Part shown: positions 3,592-21,385 of the stretch, in pieces
Position numbering within the stretch: position 1 is the first letter of the stretch
Layout: every line of letters starts with the position of its first letter
Source: a virus
Strand: one strand, 5' to 3'
IMG/VR virus record: IMGVR_UViG_3300014827_000023
Coordinates: 1 to 23,105 of that record
Length of the DNA: 23,105 nt
Notes under the pieces: generated by a model
The model's database searches: none
What the model was told of the DNA's origin: nothing
The model's input: the letters and a program-made list of their open reading frames with translations, nothing else
Program-made: the position numbers and the translations under genes

Positions 3592-3630
3592 CAATGGTGA
3601 TAGTGCAGAATAATGATTATTAATTTATAA

Positions 3631-13950: not shown

Positions 13951-14169
13951 CTACATACCCATATCCCGAAGTCTCCTATAGGCATCCTCGTCCCTCTGGA
14001 CGTGTTCTGGCTTGTCTAGCGACTCCCTTAATTGCTGTAATTTCACTTCTACTCCTGCTCTCTTCTCGATTAAGGTCATATAGGCCGTTATTCTGCCCTC
14101 TACTTCTTCGAGTGTCATTGATTTCTCGAGTAGACAATGGAGTAAGCCACGGATGGGATATTCTTTCAT
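13951..14169 (-). CDS. Small helical protein of unknown function
   Basis: 72 residues; ATG 14169 overlaps the stop of the repeat protein by four bases (ATGA), favouring this frame over a longer overlapping frame at 13976-14227. The product is mainly charged helix (MTLEEVEGRITAYMTLIEKR, VEVKLQQLRESLDKPEH). It resembles the short phage ORFs between primase and RusA in Firmicutes phages, but no function is known. A 36-bp gap separates it from rusA. Confidence 0.65.
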   Translation of the reverse strand: MKEYPIRGLLHCLLEKSMTLEEVEGRITAYMTLIEKRAGVEVKLQQLRESLDKPEHVQRDEDAYRRLRDMGM

Positions 14170-14669
14170 GTCGTTGCCCCTTTCTTAACAAATAAACTCG
14201 GTCCTGTTTTCCAGTACGATTTTTCATGGGCTCTCTGCGTTACTTCTCTTATCGTTAGTTTCTTTGTTGTCATGGCTTGCTCTAGCGTCCATCCGTGTCT
14301 CATGCGATCAGTAAACGCTGCGTAAGTTATTCCCATTTCTTTTAACGCTTCATCCACGTTGGGGTATTTTCTGTTGTTTTGGACCATTTCTTTCATCTGT
14401 GTTTTCATATCGAATAGTGGCCTTGTCGCTGCGTCCTCTACTGTCCATCCCCTTCCTATCCTTGTCTGCATCGTTTTGTACTTGATTCCGTTGGATTCAG
14501 CTATCTTCCTCCACTCGGTCAAGTCTCTTCTGTTGCGATATGGCTCTGTTATTGCTCTTTCTTTGCTCCATCCGTAGGAACGTATTCTGTTATCTAAGTT
14601 ACTTGCGCTGATTCCATTCTGCGCTGCTTGTTGGTATTCGGTAGGGGTTACATAAAACTCATACGCCAC
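14166..14669 (-). CDS. Protein with three HTH-like G-I...G-W repeats
   Basis: 167 residues, start GTG at 14669 after GGAGG with a 10-base spacer. Three related units are visible: NGISASNLDNRIRSYGWSKE (18-37), NGIKYKTMQTRIGRGWTVED (60-79) and MGITYAAFTDRMRHGWTLEQ (112-131). Each has G-I, a helix with R, G-W thirteen or fourteen residues later, and then E-x-A-x-T. The pattern fits small DNA-binding helix-turn-helix units repeated in tandem, as seen in some phage proteins and in DNA-contact segments of homing nucleases. No catalytic domain is present. A sequence-specific DNA-binding role is inferred. Confidence 0.7.
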   Translation of the reverse strand: MAYEFYVTPTEYQQAAQNGISASNLDNRIRSYGWSKERAITEPYRNRRDLTEWRKIAESNGIKYKTMQTRIGRGWTVEDAATRPLFDMKTQMKEMVQNNRKYPNVDEALKEMGITYAAFTDRMRHGWTLEQAMTTKKLTIREVTQRAHEKSYWKTGPSLFVKKGATT

Positions 14670-14871
14670 GTTTCGCGTACCTCCTTTTGAAGTTATCCAC
14701 GAATCCAGAAGGAACCCAATCGAATATACCTACGTTCGATCCCATGCCGTGCTTTTTCATGAAGTTACTGACTCCTCCTTCTGTGCAACCTAGCTCTTTT
14801 GCCATTTCCTTGCAGAGCAGGCCACGCTCCCATAGCTTTATTGCTTTGTCTTTGTCTATTTTTACTGCCAT
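14659..14871 (-). CDS. Small helix-turn-helix protein
   Basis: 70 residues, ATG after GGAGCGAGCAAC. Residues 8-42 (DKAIKLWERGLLCKEMAKEL and GCTEGGVSNFMKKHGMG) form a clear helix-turn-helix of the kind found in small phage regulators and resolvase-like domains. The remainder is basic (NFKRRYAKRGV). It overlaps both neighbours by about ten bases. It may regulate middle genes, but no operator can be assigned. Confidence 0.72.
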   Translation of the reverse strand: MAVKIDKDKAIKLWERGLLCKEMAKELGCTEGGVSNFMKKHGMGSNVGIFDWVPSGFVDNFKRRYAKRGV

Positions 14872-14972
14872 GTTGCTCGCTCCTTTGCAATCTCAGCACG
14901 TTTTACTGGATCTTTCTCTGCTATTAGCCTTATTACTTTCTTCACAATCTCCGCGAACTTATCGTCACTCAT
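14862..14972 (-). CDS. Tiny charged helical ORF (36 aa)
   Basis: ATG 14972 overlaps the stop of the upstream ORF by eight bases, and its own stop overlaps the next ATG by ten. The product MSDDKFAEIVKKVIRLIAEK plus KRAEIAKERATWQ is one charged helix. A GTG two codons upstream (14978) with AAAGGA before it is an alternative start. Packing on both sides supports translation. No family recognised. Confidence 0.5.
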   Translation of the reverse strand: MSDDKFAEIVKKVIRLIAEKDPVKRAEIAKERATWQ

Positions 14973-15141
14973 TTCCACATCGAATCGTCCTTTCTAACTG
15001 TGTTACTATGTCAAACATTATTTTGTAGCGTGGATACCATTTCTTTAGTTCTTCCTCTGTGCGTTCCGGGCTGTCGATCCAAGTCATAGCACTTATAAGT
15101 CTAGGTGAGAGTTTTTCGTATTGATCTCTAACTAATCCCAT
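14965..15141 (-). CDS. Small phage protein downstream of the primase-helicase
   Basis: 58 residues from ATG 15141, which has GGAGGATTGCCC in front; an earlier in-frame ATG at 15189 lies deep inside the primase gene with no comparable site. The sequence MGLVRDQYEKLSPRLISAMT, then RTEEELKKWYPRYKIMFDIV is helical and acidic/basic mixed. It overlaps the primase stop by ten bases. Function unknown. Confidence 0.6.
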   Translation of the reverse strand: MGLVRDQYEKLSPRLISAMTWIDSPERTEEELKKWYPRYKIMFDIVTQLERTIRCGNE

Positions 15142-16955
15142 GGGCAATCCTCCGCAGCCGCTACTTCTCGTTCTGCTGTTTGTTCCCATCCATATACTTT
15201 CTTTTCATTTGTACTTCCATTGAAATATCTCAGCGTTTTTTGGCTAAAGTAGAACTTAAACACTTTGCGTTGTCCTACCGTCCTATCTTTTAAGCTTGTT
15301 ATAAGTGCGTCGCATCCCTCATCTGTCCACACTCTCTCTACTGCTATAATGTTGTCTGCCTTATTTGGAATGTTGTTGCTCCCTGATATGTCTGTCTTTT
15401 CTAGGTTTCCTTCTTCTCCCTTGATCTCGCTTTTAATCTTGTTTGGGTGAGCAACTAGCACTATGTGTGTTTTGGTATTTGTTACGAAATTCTTACATCT
15501 CTGTACAAAGTTGGCCTGATCTGAGTTAAGAGAATCTGCATTTTCCTCTAACCTGGACATTAGGTTGTCAATCACAAACAGTTTTACTCCATATCGTTTA
15601 GCTGCTAACTCCATAAGCTCAAAGAACTTGTCTAAATCACTTGATACTGCATCAACTCGCCTGTCGTAGAGATATAAAGTTCCTTCGTGCCACTCTTTGA
15701 TTCTCTTTATGATCTCCGGCTTGATAACGTCAATCACCTTGTACTTGGTCTGTACTTGGTCCATGTACTCTTTTTTGTTACCTACGATTTGCTTGTATAG
15801 CCAATCTTGTATCTTGTACTCGCTCATCTCTCCGCTATAGAGAAATGTTTTTACTTGTCGGTCTAAGCAATGCGCCATGATCTGACTTACAAAGGTTGTT
15901 TTTCCCTCTCCATTTCTGCCAAATATGACGGTTAATTCTCCTTCTTTCCAATCACCAACATATGAGTCGTAACCGTAGAACCCTGTTTCTATTCCATTCT
16001 CTGTTGTGTTCTTATACTCAACATGAGCCATGTCCAACATTCCAATTGGCATTGTATTGATTGCGTCGTTTATCATTGCGAGGACTTTCTCTGGACCATG
16101 CTTATAAAGAACTTCGTTTGCATCCTTTAGTTTGTCGGCTACGATTACTTTTACGTTTTGCAATCTTCTAGTTATGTTGTCTGCAAACTCTAGTCCCGGC
16201 TTGTCGTTGTCGGCCCATACGATGATCTCACGCCCCTTAAGCCACTCCCAGCATGTTTCTATCCAAGTTAGATTATTAGCCCCTGATGGTGCGCTTACGA
16301 CGTTCTCATAGCCACTCTGCCATATTGCCATTGAATCCATTTGTCCTTCCGTGATCAGTAATGGTTTTTCTCTTACGATGTGGTCCATTCCCCATAAAAT
16401 AGGCTCGGTCCCTTTTTCACAACCTCCCTTAAATCCTTTCGGCTTAATCTCCCTATAAGTAACGTGTATCAAGTCTGTATCTTGTTCCCTGTAATATGGG
16501 AAAACGTAGACGTTTGAGCCGTTCCATGTGAACTCCCTAACATCCCACTCGTCCAAGGTTTTCTTTGTTAGCTTCCGTACTGCCATTAAATCAATGGCTT
16601 CCTGTGATAGTTCCCTTGTCTCAATATGGGGTAGTACATAGGCTTTCTTCTCTGCTCGGTTGGTTGGTGCAAATATGTTTAACTCCGCTTGCCCTGTTAT
16701 GTCCATAATTCTCTCCTTTGCTTGGATAAAGTTCATATTTTCAAACTCTGTGTAGTATCTGTAGATGTCTATTTGTCCTCCGCAGCCGTGACATCTCCAC
16801 ATCATCCCATCCTTAAACCATCCCATTGACGCTGTTTTCTCAGAGTGTAGAGGGCATCTAACCTTTCCTGCGTGATTAGGTTGAAAGTTTAGACCGTCTG
16901 CAATGATGTCTCTTGCTGATTGCCCTAGGATTTCTTTTAGATCCTTAGCATCCAT
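15132..16955 (-). CDS. Bifunctional primase-helicase (T7 gp4-like)
   Basis: 607 residues, a single polypeptide with both replication activities. A zinc-binding domain has C34, H37, C55 and C58 (RCPLH...RCHGCGG). The TOPRIM primase core has LLITEGQMDSMAIW at 199-212 (E203) and WADNDKPG at 247-254 (D249, D251). The RecA/DnaB-type motor has Walker A GRNGEGKTT at 346-354, Walker B LFVIDN at 459-464 and HIVLVAHP at 497-504. All key residues are present. It would unwind the fork and make primers, acting with the initiator just upstream. It abuts the initiator gene directly. Confidence 0.95.
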   Translation of the reverse strand: MDAKDLKEILGQSARDIIADGLNFQPNHAGKVRCPLHSEKTASMGWFKDGMMWRCHGCGGQIDIYRYYTEFENMNFIQAKERIMDITGQAELNIFAPTNRAEKKAYVLPHIETRELSQEAIDLMAVRKLTKKTLDEWDVREFTWNGSNVYVFPYYREQDTDLIHVTYREIKPKGFKGGCEKGTEPILWGMDHIVREKPLLITEGQMDSMAIWQSGYENVVSAPSGANNLTWIETCWEWLKGREIIVWADNDKPGLEFADNITRRLQNVKVIVADKLKDANEVLYKHGPEKVLAMINDAINTMPIGMLDMAHVEYKNTTENGIETGFYGYDSYVGDWKEGELTVIFGRNGEGKTTFVSQIMAHCLDRQVKTFLYSGEMSEYKIQDWLYKQIVGNKKEYMDQVQTKYKVIDVIKPEIIKRIKEWHEGTLYLYDRRVDAVSSDLDKFFELMELAAKRYGVKLFVIDNLMSRLEENADSLNSDQANFVQRCKNFVTNTKTHIVLVAHPNKIKSEIKGEEGNLEKTDISGSNNIPNKADNIIAVERVWTDEGCDALITSLKDRTVGQRKVFKFYFSQKTLRYFNGSTNEKKVYGWEQTAEREVAAAEDCPWD

Positions 16956-17705
16956 CTACATATCATCTCTCCTTATTCCAGCACTCTCTCCTTCTGTTAC
17001 GCCTAATCTTCCTTTTGGCTTTTCACGCTGTTTAGGATTATCTACTTTTATGGAGTTCATAACTTTTTCAGCTACCCAACTATTAATTGCTCCGTAATCT
17101 GATTTATATGTCTTTCCGTTGGATTGCTTGTACGCTCCTAATTTCTCAATCATCGTGTTTGTATTGGGAATTCCATATTTTTCTACTAACGTTTCGTATT
17201 CCGCTGGAAGAAGGGAGACGTTATCGGAGCATTGTGTCTTTGTATCTTTTATAGAATGATCTATTATAGAAGTATCTTTGTTAGGCGATTCTGTCCTAAC
17301 CCTTGGGCGATTCTGTCCTAAGGGTAGGGCGATTCTGTCCATAGGGTTAGGCGTTTCTGTCATAATGTCATAATCTTGTAATGCGTCAAGTTTTGCCGTA
17401 GGAGAGATATACGAGAAGTTTCCTTTCTTACCTTTCCTGACGTTTGTAAGATTTCTTAGCAATAGAAGGTCTTTCCCGTACATCTCAATTTTTCTCTTTA
17501 GGTTGCGCTTGGTTCCTATGATCGGTATTTGCTCTAAAAGGTAGGTGTAGTTGATCCACATATACTTAACTCCGTCGAAATCCTTAAACTCCATAGTTGC
17601 CGATGAATACATATCCTTGATGGTTCTTAGGATAAAAGCATCCTCTACGCTAAGCTTGTTCTCTATCAGTTTTTCTTGTTGGAAGCCTAATATTGTATAT
17701 TTCAT
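16956..17705 (-). CDS. Replication initiator protein with origin inside its gene
   Basis: 249 residues, ATG 17705 overlapping the upstream TGA (ATGA). The N-terminal 100 residues (SVEDAFILRTIKDMYSSATM, YMWINYTYLLEQIPIIGTKR, GNFSYISPTAKL) form the winged-helix pattern of phage and plasmid initiators such as RepA_N/phage O-type proteins. The centre, about residues 115-145, is low-complexity and encoded by the iterons. The C-terminal part (YETLVEKYGIPNTNTMIEKL with KSDYGAINSWVAEKV) resembles the helicase-loading end of DnaD-like replication proteins. It would bind the iterons and load the primase-helicase encoded next. The binding role is inferred. Confidence 0.82.
   Translation of the reverse strand: MKYTILGFQQEKLIENKLSVEDAFILRTIKDMYSSATMEFKDFDGVKYMWINYTYLLEQIPIIGTKRNLKRKIEMYGKDLLLLRNLTNVRKGKKGNFSYISPTAKLDALQDYDIMTETPNPMDRIALPLGQNRPRVRTESPNKDTSIIDHSIKDTKTQCSDNVSLLPAEYETLVEKYGIPNTNTMIEKLGAYKQSNGKTYKSDYGAINSWVAEKVMNSIKVDNPKQREKPKGRLGVTEGESAGIRRDDM
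17284..17362. repeat. Four 22-bp iterons, candidate replication origin
   Basis: The 13-mer GGCGATTCTGTCC occurs at 17284-17296, 17306-17318 and 17328-17340. A variant GGCGTTTCTGTCA is at 17350-17362. The spacing is exactly 22 bp each time, about two helix turns, so the copies face the same side of the helix. Twenty-two is not a multiple of three, so the repeat moves through all reading frames of the initiator gene and cannot be explained by protein repeats. Beside it, 17220-17283 is AT-rich (TTTTATAGAATGATC and TATTATAGAAG segments), as expected of an unwinding element. The layout matches lambda ori within gene O. Confidence 0.85.
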
Positions 17706-17863
17706 ACTTTATCTACTTCTGATGCTGTAAACTGCTTAACTTTCTTCTCCCAAAACCTCTGCATGATCGCTTGTTGCTTCTCCGGGTTATTGGCGCGCCA
17801 TTCTCTGTGCTTCTCGGTTGATCTAGCCCTTTTTTGTTCAGGTGTCTTCTTAGCTAGTTCCAT
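17702..17863 (-). CDS. Small basic protein ahead of the replication initiator (53 aa)
   Basis: ATG 17863 with AGGAGGAT seven bases upstream; the stop overlaps the initiator start (ATGA). The product MELAKKTPEQKRARSTEKHR with EWRANNPEKQQAIMQRFWEK is basic, helical and of the short arginine/glutamine-rich type often found before phage replication genes. It is the first gene of the replication operon. A nucleic-acid-binding role is plausible but unproven. Confidence 0.7.
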   Translation of the reverse strand: MELAKKTPEQKRARSTEKHREWRANNPEKQQAIMQRFWEKKVKQFTASEVDKV

Positions 17864-17930
17864 CTATAAAATCCTCCTACAAACTTTTTAAACTATTTTA
17901 GCGAATCTATTGCACAACTTGTACATGTGT

Positions 17931-17960: not shown

Positions 17961-18101
17961 CCACTTGATGGTGGGAATTGTTTTCCTCAGCTACTTAAAT
18001 AGCTGCGTTCGTTCGCACGGACAAATTACTTGGAGCTTTTGCTCAATCGGCATACTCTGGATTTATCAATACTGGTAATATTGATGAACCGAGAGTGTGC
18101 C
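17961..18101. ncRNA. Run of five hairpins, candidate structured RNA or leader
   Basis: Stems seen: CCAC/GTGG (17961-17974), AGCTA/TAGCT (17989-18004), TGCG/CGCA (18004-18017), GAGC/GCTC with a TTTT loop (18033-18044), and a long one from 18049 to 18101. The long one has a 10-bp outer stem GGCATACTCT/AGAGTGTGCC with one G-U pair, a GG/CC step and a 7-bp inner stem ATCAATA/TATTGAT. No credible gene covers it. It could be a plus-strand RNA from the weak promoter at 17910-17938, or part of the long minus-strand leader of the replication operon. I cannot match it to a known family. The region 17864-18260 holds nothing else coding. Confidence 0.45.
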
Positions 18102-18163
18102 AAAACCTGTTTTATGTATAACCGATAATCAGCCCCCTTATTGGAAATCTTACCTACCTGTCT

Positions 18164-18192
18164 AGTATAGCATACCTTGGTCAATTTGTACA
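18164..18192 (-). promoter_or_regulatory. Candidate promoter of the replication operon
   Basis: Minus strand: -10 TATACT (18164-18169) with a TGn extension (TGC), -35 TGTACA (18187-18192), spacer 17 bp. Transcription from about 18157 would give a leader near 295 bases containing the hairpin array before the first replication gene. It partly overlaps the inverted repeat at 18177-18229. Confidence 0.45.
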
Positions 18193-18229
18193 TAGTGTAT
18201 AACGTACATTTTATGTTTAATTTGACCAA
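18177..18229. promoter_or_regulatory. Inverted repeat between divergent promoters, candidate operator
   Basis: TTGGTCAA (18177-18184) and TTGACCAA (18222-18229) are perfect inverted copies 37 bp apart. GTACAT occurs twice between them (18188-18193 and near 18204-18209). The right arm is the -35 box of the RHH gene; the left arm lies beside the minus-strand promoter. A regulator bound at both could shut both directions. The RHH protein is the obvious candidate but this is inference. Confidence 0.5.
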
Positions 18230-18250
18230 ATTTCGACTATCTGTTATAAT
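18222..18250 (+). promoter_or_regulatory. Promoter of the RHH regulator gene
   Basis: -35 TTGACC at 18222-18227, 17-bp spacer, -10 TATAAT at 18245-18250. Only one base departs from consensus. The start codon at 18270 leaves a very short leader, enough for the TTGGAG binding site. Confidence 0.75.
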
Positions 18251-18269
18251 TTAATTGGAGTTGATAAAA

Positions 18270-18461
18270 ATGTCTAGAGAAAAACCAAAAGAGAACTTAC
18301 TTCGATTTCCGACAATGATAACGCCTAAGCAATCAGAGGATATTGACCGTTACCGACAGGATATTGGGACGCTGCCAGCCAAGGGAAAGGCTGTTCGAGA
18401 TTTGCTTGAACTTGGACTAGAGACATACTGGAATAAGAAGAAGGATGGAGCCGGGAAGTAA
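18270..18461 (+). CDS. Ribbon-helix-helix-type regulator (only plus-strand gene)
   Basis: 63 residues. I choose ATG 18270 because TTGGAG lies nine bases before it; an upstream in-frame TTG at 18255 would overlap that site. After a basic start (MSREKPKENLLRFP), residues 15-55 fit a ribbon-helix-helix: short strand PTMITP, helix KQSEDIDRYRQDIG, turn with LPAKG, helix KAVRDLLELGLETYW. Such Arc/CopG-like dimers bind operators through the strand. It is transcribed against the surrounding operons from its own promoter, beside an inverted repeat that includes its -35 box, suggesting autoregulation and control of the replication operon. Confidence 0.75.
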   Translation: MSREKPKENLLRFPTMITPKQSEDIDRYRQDIGTLPAKGKAVRDLLELGLETYWNKKKDGAGK

Positions 18462-18606: not shown

Positions 18607-19383
18607 CTAAAGACTTAGATGTTTGTTTTTAAGTTTATTCTTGCTTAATTTTGAATTATAATATTTGAAAATAGTATTCACTGTTTTTATAACTTTCGGA
18701 ATATTATTAGTATCGTTATCAGCCTCTCTCCCTATCTTTACAGGTTCTACTCTTTTAAGTTGTCTGATAAAGGTTTCCATTTTAATATCGTCTTTGTATA
18801 TACTGATAAATTCAGAAACGCCTCTTAACATATTCTGGCTAAATGCTTCGTTCGCACCAGCCCATGTTAATTTTATGAATTGTAAGGTGCTATCCAAGTG
18901 ATCTTTACCGTGTTTTTTATAAATTTTACTCAGGGCGGCTATCGCATTAATCTTATTTTTACCAGTACCCTTTGAAATCCCCATGCCATTTTTTTCAACT
19001 ATATATTTTATATCAAGTGCTTCCTTATTTTTTGCTTCAACCTCAGCGTTAAAATAATCCAAAGCCGATAATTTGTATCTAATGCCATTAAGGTCTATGA
19101 ATAAATTAGCTTCTTCCTCATAAGTCAATCCATATAAAACTTGGCACATTAACATTGGTACTTTTGCCATTCTTGCGGAATAAGCTCTATGTTGTCCGTC
19201 TATTACGTTAAAATCACCATCTCTAAAACTAACTGTTATAACACCAACCTTATTCATATCAAAATTAGTAGCTATTTCCTTTGCAAAAGTTGGGTTCAAA
19301 GCTCTTTGATACACACCAACTTTTAAGTTTTTTACAGAAACCATTTCATAAGTTGCATTTGATATTAAATTTATATTTTTCAT
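18607..19383 (-). CDS. ParB-like DGQHR-type protein
   Basis: 258 residues. The motif FNVIDGQHRAYSARMAKVPM at 58-77 is the ParB/sulfiredoxin-fold signature (D62-G-Q-H-R66), preceded by VGVYQRALNPTFAKEIATN, the usual first helix of that fold. The rest is helical and charged with no DNA-binding domain that I recognise; the C-terminus is Lys/Asn-rich. DGQHR proteins include CTP-binding ParB relatives and DndB-like regulators, and unassigned phage proteins (DUF6551-like). It follows a second ParB-like gene by three bases, so the two are probably made together. Confidence 0.75.
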   Translation of the reverse strand: MKNINLISNATYEMVSVKNLKVGVYQRALNPTFAKEIATNFDMNKVGVITVSFRDGDFNVIDGQHRAYSARMAKVPMLMCQVLYGLTYEEEANLFIDLNGIRYKLSALDYFNAEVEAKNKEALDIKYIVEKNGMGISKGTGKNKINAIAALSKIYKKHGKDHLDSTLQFIKLTWAGANEAFSQNMLRGVSEFISIYKDDIKMETFIRQLKRVEPVKIGREADNDTNNIPKVIKTVNTIFKYYNSKLSKNKLKNKHLSL

Positions 19384-19386
19384 TTT

Positions 19387-20403
19387 CTATTCCTCCATTA
19401 AATTTATTATTGTTTCTAAACTTGATATTGCTTTTTCCAATAGCTCTTTTGGTTTTGTTTGACCCTTAAAAACCGATTTCATGTACAAAAATTGATTAAT
19501 AGCCATGTTAAATTCACTGACTATATCCTCTAATTGTGATATACTTTCGTTGTAGATAAATTTGTCAGTGCCTTCTTCGGAAGGCTTTTTTCTTTTCATT
19601 TCCTCAAGTATTGTGTCAACTCCATCTACAACATGACTGTTCATTGCCCTTATTTTTTCTCGTGCGTTAGGGTCATTGGTTATTCTTAAGGCATTTTTGC
19701 AGGCTTTGCACTCTCCTCTCCCATTGCTAAATTCTGTTGCGGACTTTCTTATTCCGCATGTTGTGCATATTTTTCTTTCTTCCTCACCATCCTTCATTAC
19801 TTCTTCTAGCACTTCTTCTTTTGACTTTAATGGTCTTATTTCCCTGTAAACTTTATTGATTTTCTTACTGCCTTTTGATAATGCTTCCTTTTGTTCCGGC
19901 GTAGCTTCACGCTCTATAACTTTGATTTTGGCAATAGTGTCATGGCCTACACCGGCTAGTTTCGCTATTTCGTCGCGGGTTTTGGTCGACACTTGTGCTG
20001 AATTCGGCACAAGTGATTTACCAGGAGCAGTCCCGCCATGTTCTTTTTGCCTAGCCTTAGCTCCCTCACCAATAATCGCCTCTAGCTTCAACGCTAACTT
20101 TCCCCTCTCATAGTTTGGTAGATTCCTCCTTCCAAACTGATTTCTTATGATCCATTCGATGGCTTCCTCTCTGTCTTTAATTTCTATTGGCATTGTTTTG
20201 AAAGGTATATTGTTTTTAGTACATATCTCATAACGGTTATGTCCATCAAGTAAAATATCATTCCATGTTACAAGTGCATCCCTACAGCCTTTATCTATAA
20301 TGTTTTGTTCTAGTTGCTGATATTCTTCATTTGTAAGTGGTGGAATGAGTTGTCTGAATTCACTGTCTAATTTCATATACTTGGAATTAATATCTATACG
20401 CAT
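19387..20403 (-). CDS. ParB/Spo0J-like protein with internal zinc finger
   Basis: 338 residues. The ParB N-terminal domain has LTNEEYQQLEQNIIDKGCRD at 23-42 and ILLDGHNRYEI at 50-60, the nucleotide-binding or nuclease-like core. A helix-turn-helix follows (DEIAKLAGVGHDTIAKIKVI, 144-163), as in ParB and KorB. Next comes a zinc finger, C213-x2-C216 and C232-x2-C235 (CTTCGIRKSATEF, GECKACKN), resembling the fingers of the window's HNH endonuclease. The C-terminal 90 residues are helical. Such proteins bind DNA and regulate or organise it; no ParA is present here, so true partition is unsupported. Confidence 0.8.
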   Translation of the reverse strand: MRIDINSKYMKLDSEFRQLIPPLTNEEYQQLEQNIIDKGCRDALVTWNDILLDGHNRYEICTKNNIPFKTMPIEIKDREEAIEWIIRNQFGRRNLPNYERGKLALKLEAIIGEGAKARQKEHGGTAPGKSLVPNSAQVSTKTRDEIAKLAGVGHDTIAKIKVIEREATPEQKEALSKGSKKINKVYREIRPLKSKEEVLEEVMKDGEEERKICTTCGIRKSATEFSNGRGECKACKNALRITNDPNAREKIRAMNSHVVDGVDTILEEMKRKKPSEEGTDKFIYNESISQLEDIVSEFNMAINQFLYMKSVFKGQTKPKELLEKAISSLETIINLMEE

Positions 20404-21013: not shown

Positions 21014-21385
21014 CTAAAAAGGGATATCACCCTGGTCCATATTTACTTCTGCTCCTAAGTGCTGATTTTCTTCATGCTTAGGCTTACTTCCTATAAACTC
21101 AACTCGATCTGCTAATATCTCAGTCTTATAATGCTTAACCCCATCCTTTTCCCACGTAGAGGTCTGTATTGACCCTGTAACACCTGCTTGAGATCCCTTG
21201 ACTAGATAGTTAGCAACGCTCTCAGCCTGGGCCTTGAAACAGATAACAGGCAAGAAGTCTGCTGTTTTGTCTTTGGAGTAGGGACGGTCTACCGCTAGGA
21301 CAAATTTGCATACCGCAACACCTGATGTTGAAAAACGTAATTCTGGATCGGCGCATAATCTTCCGACAAGTTGTACTGAATTCAT
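21014..21385 (-). CDS. ssb: Single-stranded DNA-binding protein
   Basis: 123 residues, ATG after GGGGGATAAATA. The OB-fold is clear: MNSVQLVGRLCADPELRFST at the start, then VCKFVLAVDRPYSKD, DFLPVICFKAQAESVANYLV and KGSQAGVTGSIQTSTWEKDG. The acidic end DMDQGDIPF is the typical tip that contacts partner proteins. It coats single-stranded DNA during replication and annealing, consistent with the neighbouring annealase. It is shorter than E. coli SSB because its linker is short, normal for phages of Firmicutes. Confidence 0.95.
   Translation of the reverse strand: MNSVQLVGRLCADPELRFSTSGVAVCKFVLAVDRPYSKDKTADFLPVICFKAQAESVANYLVKGSQAGVTGSIQTSTWEKDGVKHYKTEILADRVEFIGSKPKHEENQHLGAEVNMDQGDIPF

Follow-up and report, generated by a model that had tools for sequence, protein, structure and literature searches.

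Organization of the replication locus

The window analyzed here, by which we mean the whole 23,105-nt stretch, is a linear 23-kb virus record that is perhaps a fragment, and a second origin or a loader could sit elsewhere. A replication initiator gene (16956..17705, 249 aa) is followed directly on the minus strand by a primase-helicase gene (15132..16955, 607 aa), and a single-strand DNA-binding protein is encoded on the same strand in the same early region (21014..21385; PF00436, E = 9.8e-29). The initiator matched phrog_13246, ‘replisome organizer’ (E = 1.6e-17), and its relative in phage TJE1 carries the annotation ‘replication initiation protein’. Profile searches returned no Pfam or NCBIfam match for the initiator; PF04492 (Phage_rep_O) had no match in the window at E ≤ 0.1 or among 23 relatives at E ≤ 1, and the RepA_N profile PF06970 had none in the window at E ≤ 10, and the initiator was accordingly not assigned to either family by sequence. 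A sequence search found no solved-structure relatives of the initiator, and no plasmid relatives were found at the DNA level.

The structure of the initiator was predicted with pLDDT > 90 for most of residues 1–109, and we delimited an N-terminal domain at residues 1–118 (17352..17705, minus strand), a predicted winged helix and the presumed iteron binder. Residues ~120–165 were predicted to be disordered and form a linker encoded by the iterons and AT-rich DNA described below. The C-terminal part, which was poorly predicted, is helical and includes an apparently exchangeable domain (~residues 166–222; 17040..17210, minus strand) homologous to the C-terminal domains of L044, L050 and FP_Brigit. 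Fold comparison of the N-terminal domain gave modest matches (4pql, Z = 8.6; 4pt7, Z = 8.4; 2v79, Z = 8.2; MepR/MarR tied), with RepA_N plasmid initiators, DnaD N-terminal domains and MarR-type proteins among the top rows. The predicted fold supports DNA binding while the tied scores leave its ancestry undecided, and because the matches are modest and tied with MarR-type repressors, we infer iteron binding by this domain. By modeled fold, the RepA_N plasmid initiators or DnaD may be nearer analogues than lambda O.

The downstream enzyme was initially annotated as a T7 gp4-like single-chain primase-helicase, in agreement with the Zn finger, Toprim and DnaB_C domains found in one chain and with Twinkle and T7 gp4 as its closest solved-structure relatives. 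The initial annotation also set this enzyme in the place of a DnaB loader partner. No DnaC-like loader (PF01695) was found by six-frame search of the window and no DnaC-like gene was found in five related contigs with close primase-helicases, all of which may be fragments.

In-gene iterons and the adjacent AT-rich segment

The 13-mer GGCGATTCTGTCC has exact copies at 17284, 17306 and 17328 and a copy with two mismatches at 17350, giving four matches compared to 0.29 expected (four were never reached in 100 shuffles), with no further copy anywhere in the 23-kb window. Tandem Repeats Finder placed an array at 17280–17365 with a period of 22 and 3.9 copies, the top score of the window. The repeat unit of ~19 bp reads TTAGGACAGAATCGCCTAA in gene orientation, in which the units follow one another on the minus strand as iteron 1 (the variant, TTATGACAGAAACGCCTAA, 17347..17365), iteron 2 (TATGGACAGAATCGCCCTA, 17325..17343), iteron 3 (TTAGGACAGAATCGCCCAA, 17303..17321) and iteron 4 (TTAGGACAGAATCGCCTAA, 17281..17299), the last having the clearest imperfect dyad of the four (TTAGG/CCTAA). 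The first iteron begins at nt 341 of the initiator gene and the spacing is 22/22/22. The three exact copies and one variant every 22 bp reported in the initial annotation were thus located and exceeded shuffled expectation; its coordinates captured the array but were slightly too narrow, as the units span 17281–17365. Dyad symmetry of the window iterons taken alone was weak (P = 0.05) and was stronger in relatives.

Each 22-bp step shifts the reading frame, and the iteron copies fall in phases 1, 2, 0 and 1. We compared the array with sequences in which the protein and codon usage were fixed and synonymous codons permuted (300 shuffles), and found that the period-22 score of the window (37/44) was reached in 0/300 (null maximum 31). 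Because synonymous shuffles never reached this score, the repeat is not caused by a repetitive protein. The window repeat is selected as DNA and not via the protein, as had been proposed from the passage of the repeats through all frames.

Directly downstream of the iterons in gene orientation lies an AT-rich segment with 15-bp repeats (GATACTTCTATAATA..., 17236..17280, minus strand), a probable unwinding element whose position and AT content are conserved in relatives. The stretch carries its own 15-bp repeat, in frame, at 17242–17277. An AT-rich stretch adjoining the iterons had been noted at the outset, and in a stability scan of the replication region (14600–17900) the 42-bp window of lowest stability began at 17242, with 17238–17279 ranking among the top 0.6% over all 23 kb. 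GC skew was rejected as an origin marker, as skew simply tracks gene orientation in the window.

Conservation of the array within an initiator family

Residues 1–118 characterize a family (MKYTxxGFxQ...) for which neither Pfam nor NCBIfam has a profile, with relatives in viral contigs, bacterial genomes (mostly Clostridia, and also spirochaete bins) and the isolated phages phiFN37 and TJE1. Across 27 family genes, window included, we found 3–6 repeats spaced 20–25 bp apart with a median array start at nt 341; spacings clustered at 21–23 bp, where the 20–26 bp spacing permitted in the mechanical repeat search restricts what a spacing average can show. Synonymous shuffling over spacings of 20–25 bp was significant at P ≤ 0.01 for 14/25 family initiator genes, while L012, L019, L021 and L032 failed when taken alone. 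Of the genes found later, which provide an independent check, the Clostridia prophage genes L063, L064, L067 and L068 also passed, L066 and L070 failed when taken alone, and L071 was borderline. In L071, the N-terminal domain continues into methyltransferase-like sequence in one 514-aa frame, which is either a fusion or an assembly artefact.

Repeat sequences were entirely different between family phages (for example TTGGGACAAAATGTCCCAA, GTACGGTAAAAATACCGGA and TACGACTCAAAAGTCGGAG), and tended toward imperfect dyads with an A-rich centre. Iteron arms matched their own partners at 0.68 and the arms of other phages at 0.52 (maximum 0.59 in 300 swaps), and N-terminal domain similarity predicted iteron similarity (ρ = 0.50, P = 0.001, 27 phages) while C-terminal domain similarity hardly did (ρ = 0.13, 27 phages), with the iteron consensus letters for both the arm-matching and co-variation tests chosen by eye from mechanical lists. 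The segment after the array was richer in AT than the rest of the gene (0.79 compared to 0.67), also at third codon positions (0.92 compared to 0.70; Wilcoxon P ~ 1e-8). Spacing was maintained as the repeat sequence drifted, the opposite of the loss of period in close relatives that the initial annotation had named as counting against its reading. Repeats of 22–23 bp also occurred in a similar place within initiator genes of other N-terminal families, at 3601–3668 in L051 and 3447–3514 in L049 (Phage_rep_O), and the layout thus extends beyond the window family.

Helicase systems and the C-terminal tail

Genes neighboring the initiator varied among family relatives: L013 has a DnaC-type loader there, L010 a protein that combines an NrS-1 polymerase HBD domain with a DnaB-like helicase domain, L019, L020, L021 and L025 a DnaB helicase, and phiFN37/L015 and L037 other primase-helicases. 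The pairing of a window-family initiator with a gp4-like primase-helicase recurs in phiFN37, the one isolated phage in which we found it. We found no paper on this pairing in a literature search that was thin on subscription journals. Relatives in the N-terminal domain differed in their C-terminal domain as well as in the neighboring helicase system, and the window-type C-terminal domain was missing from the closest N-terminal relatives. The same N-terminal domain combined with differing C-terminal domains and neighbors indicates that the N-terminal domain and origin constitute a cassette, with the iteron block lying at the boundary beyond which C-terminal parts are swapped.

A search starting from the helicase gave initiators of quite different types, encoded upstream of helicases 54–81% identical to that of the window. 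These included a Phage_rep_org_N protein with Phg_2220_C (L041), a match to Phage_rep_O (PF04492; L049), Lin1244_N (L053), Phg_2220_C (L051) and two unnamed types with C-terminal domains resembling the window’s (L044 and L050). A tail pattern, GRxGVT...GxRRDDM, was common to these otherwise unrelated initiators upstream of the window’s helicase clade. In the window, the C-terminal tail (KGRLGVTEGESAGIRRDDM, 16956..17018, minus strand) overlaps what is likely the ribosome-binding site of the following gene, the RR codons coinciding with its expected position. The tails read GRLGVTEGESAGIRRDDM in the window, GRIGVTEGEGAGIRRDDM in L041 and GRVGVTVAEDPGPRRDDM in L044, and end in ...FGVTVANPEKIIRRDDY (L049), ...RVLEGEGAGERRAE (L050), ...GERRPDW (L051) and ...RRDDY (L053).

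Window and L041 initiators had only their last 28 residues in common (68% identical, E = 8e-8). Over 18 codons of the tail, the two differed by 7 synonymous and 2 amino-acid changes, including 5 synonymous and 2 amino-acid changes in the 13 codons upstream of RR (GRxGVT..E..G), as expected of a protein segment under selection, with the numbers being small and L044 less conserved. A scan with the DNA pattern of the tail recovered only the helicase loci already known and one chance match, in L057, with no initiator or helicase nearby. The tail is not universal among phages with primase-helicases, as it was absent in L045–L048, phiFN37, L075 and L078. In L075, the helicase is 61% identical to that of the window and its ribosome-binding site reads ...IRREKP. 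Judged from these alignments the tail is a good docking-peptide candidate, and a contact between initiator and primase-helicase through it is conceivable, although we give this somewhat less than even weight.

Neighboring features of the early region

Upstream of the replication operon, strong consecutive hairpins are predicted in the intergenic region at 17985–18115 (z = −5.9 on the plus and −4.9 on the minus strand). The main hairpin is conserved in L009 (~79% DNA identity, one compensatory change), and an Rfam search of the window, these hairpins included, gave no match; the hairpins may represent an RNA leader or resemble a single-strand origin. At 18177–18250, an inverted repeat (18177–18194/18212–18229) overlaps a near-consensus promoter, TTGACC-17-TATAAT, serving a small divergent gene (18255–18461) that is ribbon-helix-helix-like by eye, and the repeat looks like an operator. 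Two adjacent ParB-like proteins are encoded at 18607–20403, one with DUF6551 and the other matching phrog_4715 with an endonuclease VII-like segment, and no ParA was recognized in the early region holding them. A family of repeated-motif proteins (MxYxFYxTPExYxxAxQNGI...) is represented at 14166–14669, twice in L009 (5221–5643 and 6096–6608) and in L041 (7376–7942).

A putative origin within the initiator gene

The array and AT-rich segment very probably constitute a phage replication origin embedded in the initiator gene, and we have high confidence in an origin whose iterons the initiator would bind. The initial annotation had likewise read the locus as a lambda-like origin inside the initiator gene, and the start at nt 341, 22/22/22 spacing, AT-rich DNA downstream and period kept in relatives all accord with it. 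By analogy, the origin would be of the lambda/RepA_N type.

We infer the binding, melting and recruitment parts of the model. The winged-helix N-terminal domain would bind each of the four 22-bp iterons, probably with a dimer seated on every imperfect dyad, so that roughly one protein unit falls on every two turns of the helix. Iteron-bound initiators would then assemble into an O-some-like complex, which would melt the AT-rich 15-bp repeats immediately downstream in gene orientation, and both steps are proposed because of the close analogy with lambda O and RepA_N plasmids (PMC7466680, PMC5703833, PMC7145576). The C-terminal domain and tail would deliver to the melted DNA a helicase, most likely the phage’s own gp4-like primase-helicase encoded directly downstream, which would prime and unwind without a separate loader; this delivery step is suggested by the swap pattern and the tail. 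Physical recruitment of the primase-helicase by the initiator is plausible because C-terminal domains are swapped and the tail follows the helicase clade, and we lean slightly in its favor. A more general scheme, which we consider less likely than not, would divide phage initiators into three parts. The N-terminal domain would be inherited along with the iterons in its gene, the C-terminal domain would be exchangeable, and a short docking tail (GRxGVT...GxRRDD[MY]) would accompany one kind of primase-helicase and bring it to whichever origin is present, irrespective of the remainder of the initiator.

The main competing account concerns recruitment and has a substantial share of the probability, if a little less than half. 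The origin would be real, but the primase-helicase would load itself or be brought by another factor, with the tail being the helicase translation signal plus hitch-hiking sequence. To our knowledge, T7 gp4 does not require an initiator protein for loading, the RR codons of the tail are AGG/AGA-rich and resemble a Shine-Dalgarno sequence, and the ribosome-binding site in L075 is present without the remainder of the tail. However, the tail upstream of RR is kept between the window and L041 though the initiators are otherwise dissimilar, and C-terminal domains swap together with helicase systems.

Accounts in which the array is no origin fared worse. The repeats could be operators through which the initiator represses or modulates transcription of its own gene, with replication beginning elsewhere, since iterons frequently serve as regulatory sites too in iteron plasmids and the N-terminal fold is in common with MarR-type repressors; the array nevertheless lies ~340 bp within the gene and not at the promoter, AT-rich DNA follows it in relatives where helicase genes often adjoin, and the identical layout is a proven origin in lambda (PMC7466680), which makes this improbable. 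It is less probable still that the nearby ParB-like proteins (18607–20403) use the repeats as a centromere-like or other site: although two such proteins are encoded in the early region (phrog_1033, DUF6551, phrog_4715), the array goes with the initiator N-terminal domain in ~27 phages and the iterons co-vary with that domain. Least probable, to the point of being negligible, is that a repetitive, low-complexity protein linker gave rise to the repeat. The region is indeed a predicted disordered linker, and repeats are in frame in some relatives whose spacing is 21 or 24 bp, but the 22-bp step in the window runs through three frames and is lost in synonymous shuffles (0/300), which refutes repetitive protein as its cause.

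With the in-gene origin as the preferred reading, the family bears on how phages with a T7-like primase-helicase direct the enzyme to a defined origin. It offers a natural set in which one origin and DNA-binding module occurs together with primase-helicases, with DnaB helicases and with DnaC-type loaders, along with a short candidate docking tail, and therefore makes the question of which initiator part chooses the helicase testable by domain swaps. The layout also suggests a simple way to locate origins in uncultured phages of Bacillota and Fusobacteria, namely to look ~340 bp into the initiator gene for 22-bp dyads and then AT-rich 15-bp repeats.

Comparison with known systems

In-gene origins are already known in lambda, RepA_N plasmids and lactococcal phages. 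The initiator family is new here, as are the tail, the pairing with a gp4-like primase-helicase, and the retention of period, position and dyad despite drift in sequence. Lambda O and Stx O bind as dimers to in-gene iterons beside an AT-rich tract required for unwinding (PMC7466680). Like the window, lambda ori has four iterons 20–24 bp apart (array start nt 349 and spacings 20/24/23 when lambda O was run through the same script), imperfect dyads with an A-rich centre and an AT-rich segment directly downstream, and lambda O likewise has a DNA-binding N-terminal part and a separate C-terminal partner part. The window differs in lacking a PF04492 match, in its unrelated iteron sequence, and in having a primase-helicase as the next gene instead of the DnaB loader lambda P.

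RepA_N plasmids have their origin within rep, where semi-palindromic iterons surround a poly-A tract; the C-terminal domain has a host-specific function and in pSK41 binds DnaG (PMC5703833, PMC7145576). The RepA_N proteins of pSK41 and pTZ2162 resemble the window initiator in their in-gene origin, semi-palindromic in-gene iterons and exchangeable C-terminal domain, and their winged-helix N-terminal domains (4pql, 4pt7 and 5kbj) were among the top fold matches of its predicted one. While the RepA_N C-terminal domain contacts the replication machinery, the window initiator showed no sign of a DnaG-binding C-terminal domain; it also has no PF06970 match, is phage-borne, and has fold scores tied with other winged helices. 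Among lactococcal phages, the organizers of TP901-1 and Tuc2009 bind repeats inside their own genes, as cited in PMC8965321. TP901-1 ORF13, Tuc2009 Rep2009 and r1t ORF11 are Bacillota phage initiators that we liken to the window’s by description, and the r1t partner is a DnaC-like loader, unlike the window’s primase-helicase.

T7 gp4 and Twinkle, like the window enzyme, combine Zn finger, Toprim and hexameric helicase domains within a single chain. We know of no iteron initiator of the window kind in T7, and the primase-helicase gene directly after an iteron initiator gene sets the window apart from that phage. Fusobacterium phage phiFN37 (OR492271) differs from the window in iteron sequence, C-terminal domain and helicase subfamily, and the RRDDM tail is absent. 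It shares the same N-terminal family, 22-bp repeats (nt 426–490 of the initiator gene), AT-rich 15-bp repeats and a primase-helicase gene directly downstream of the initiator.
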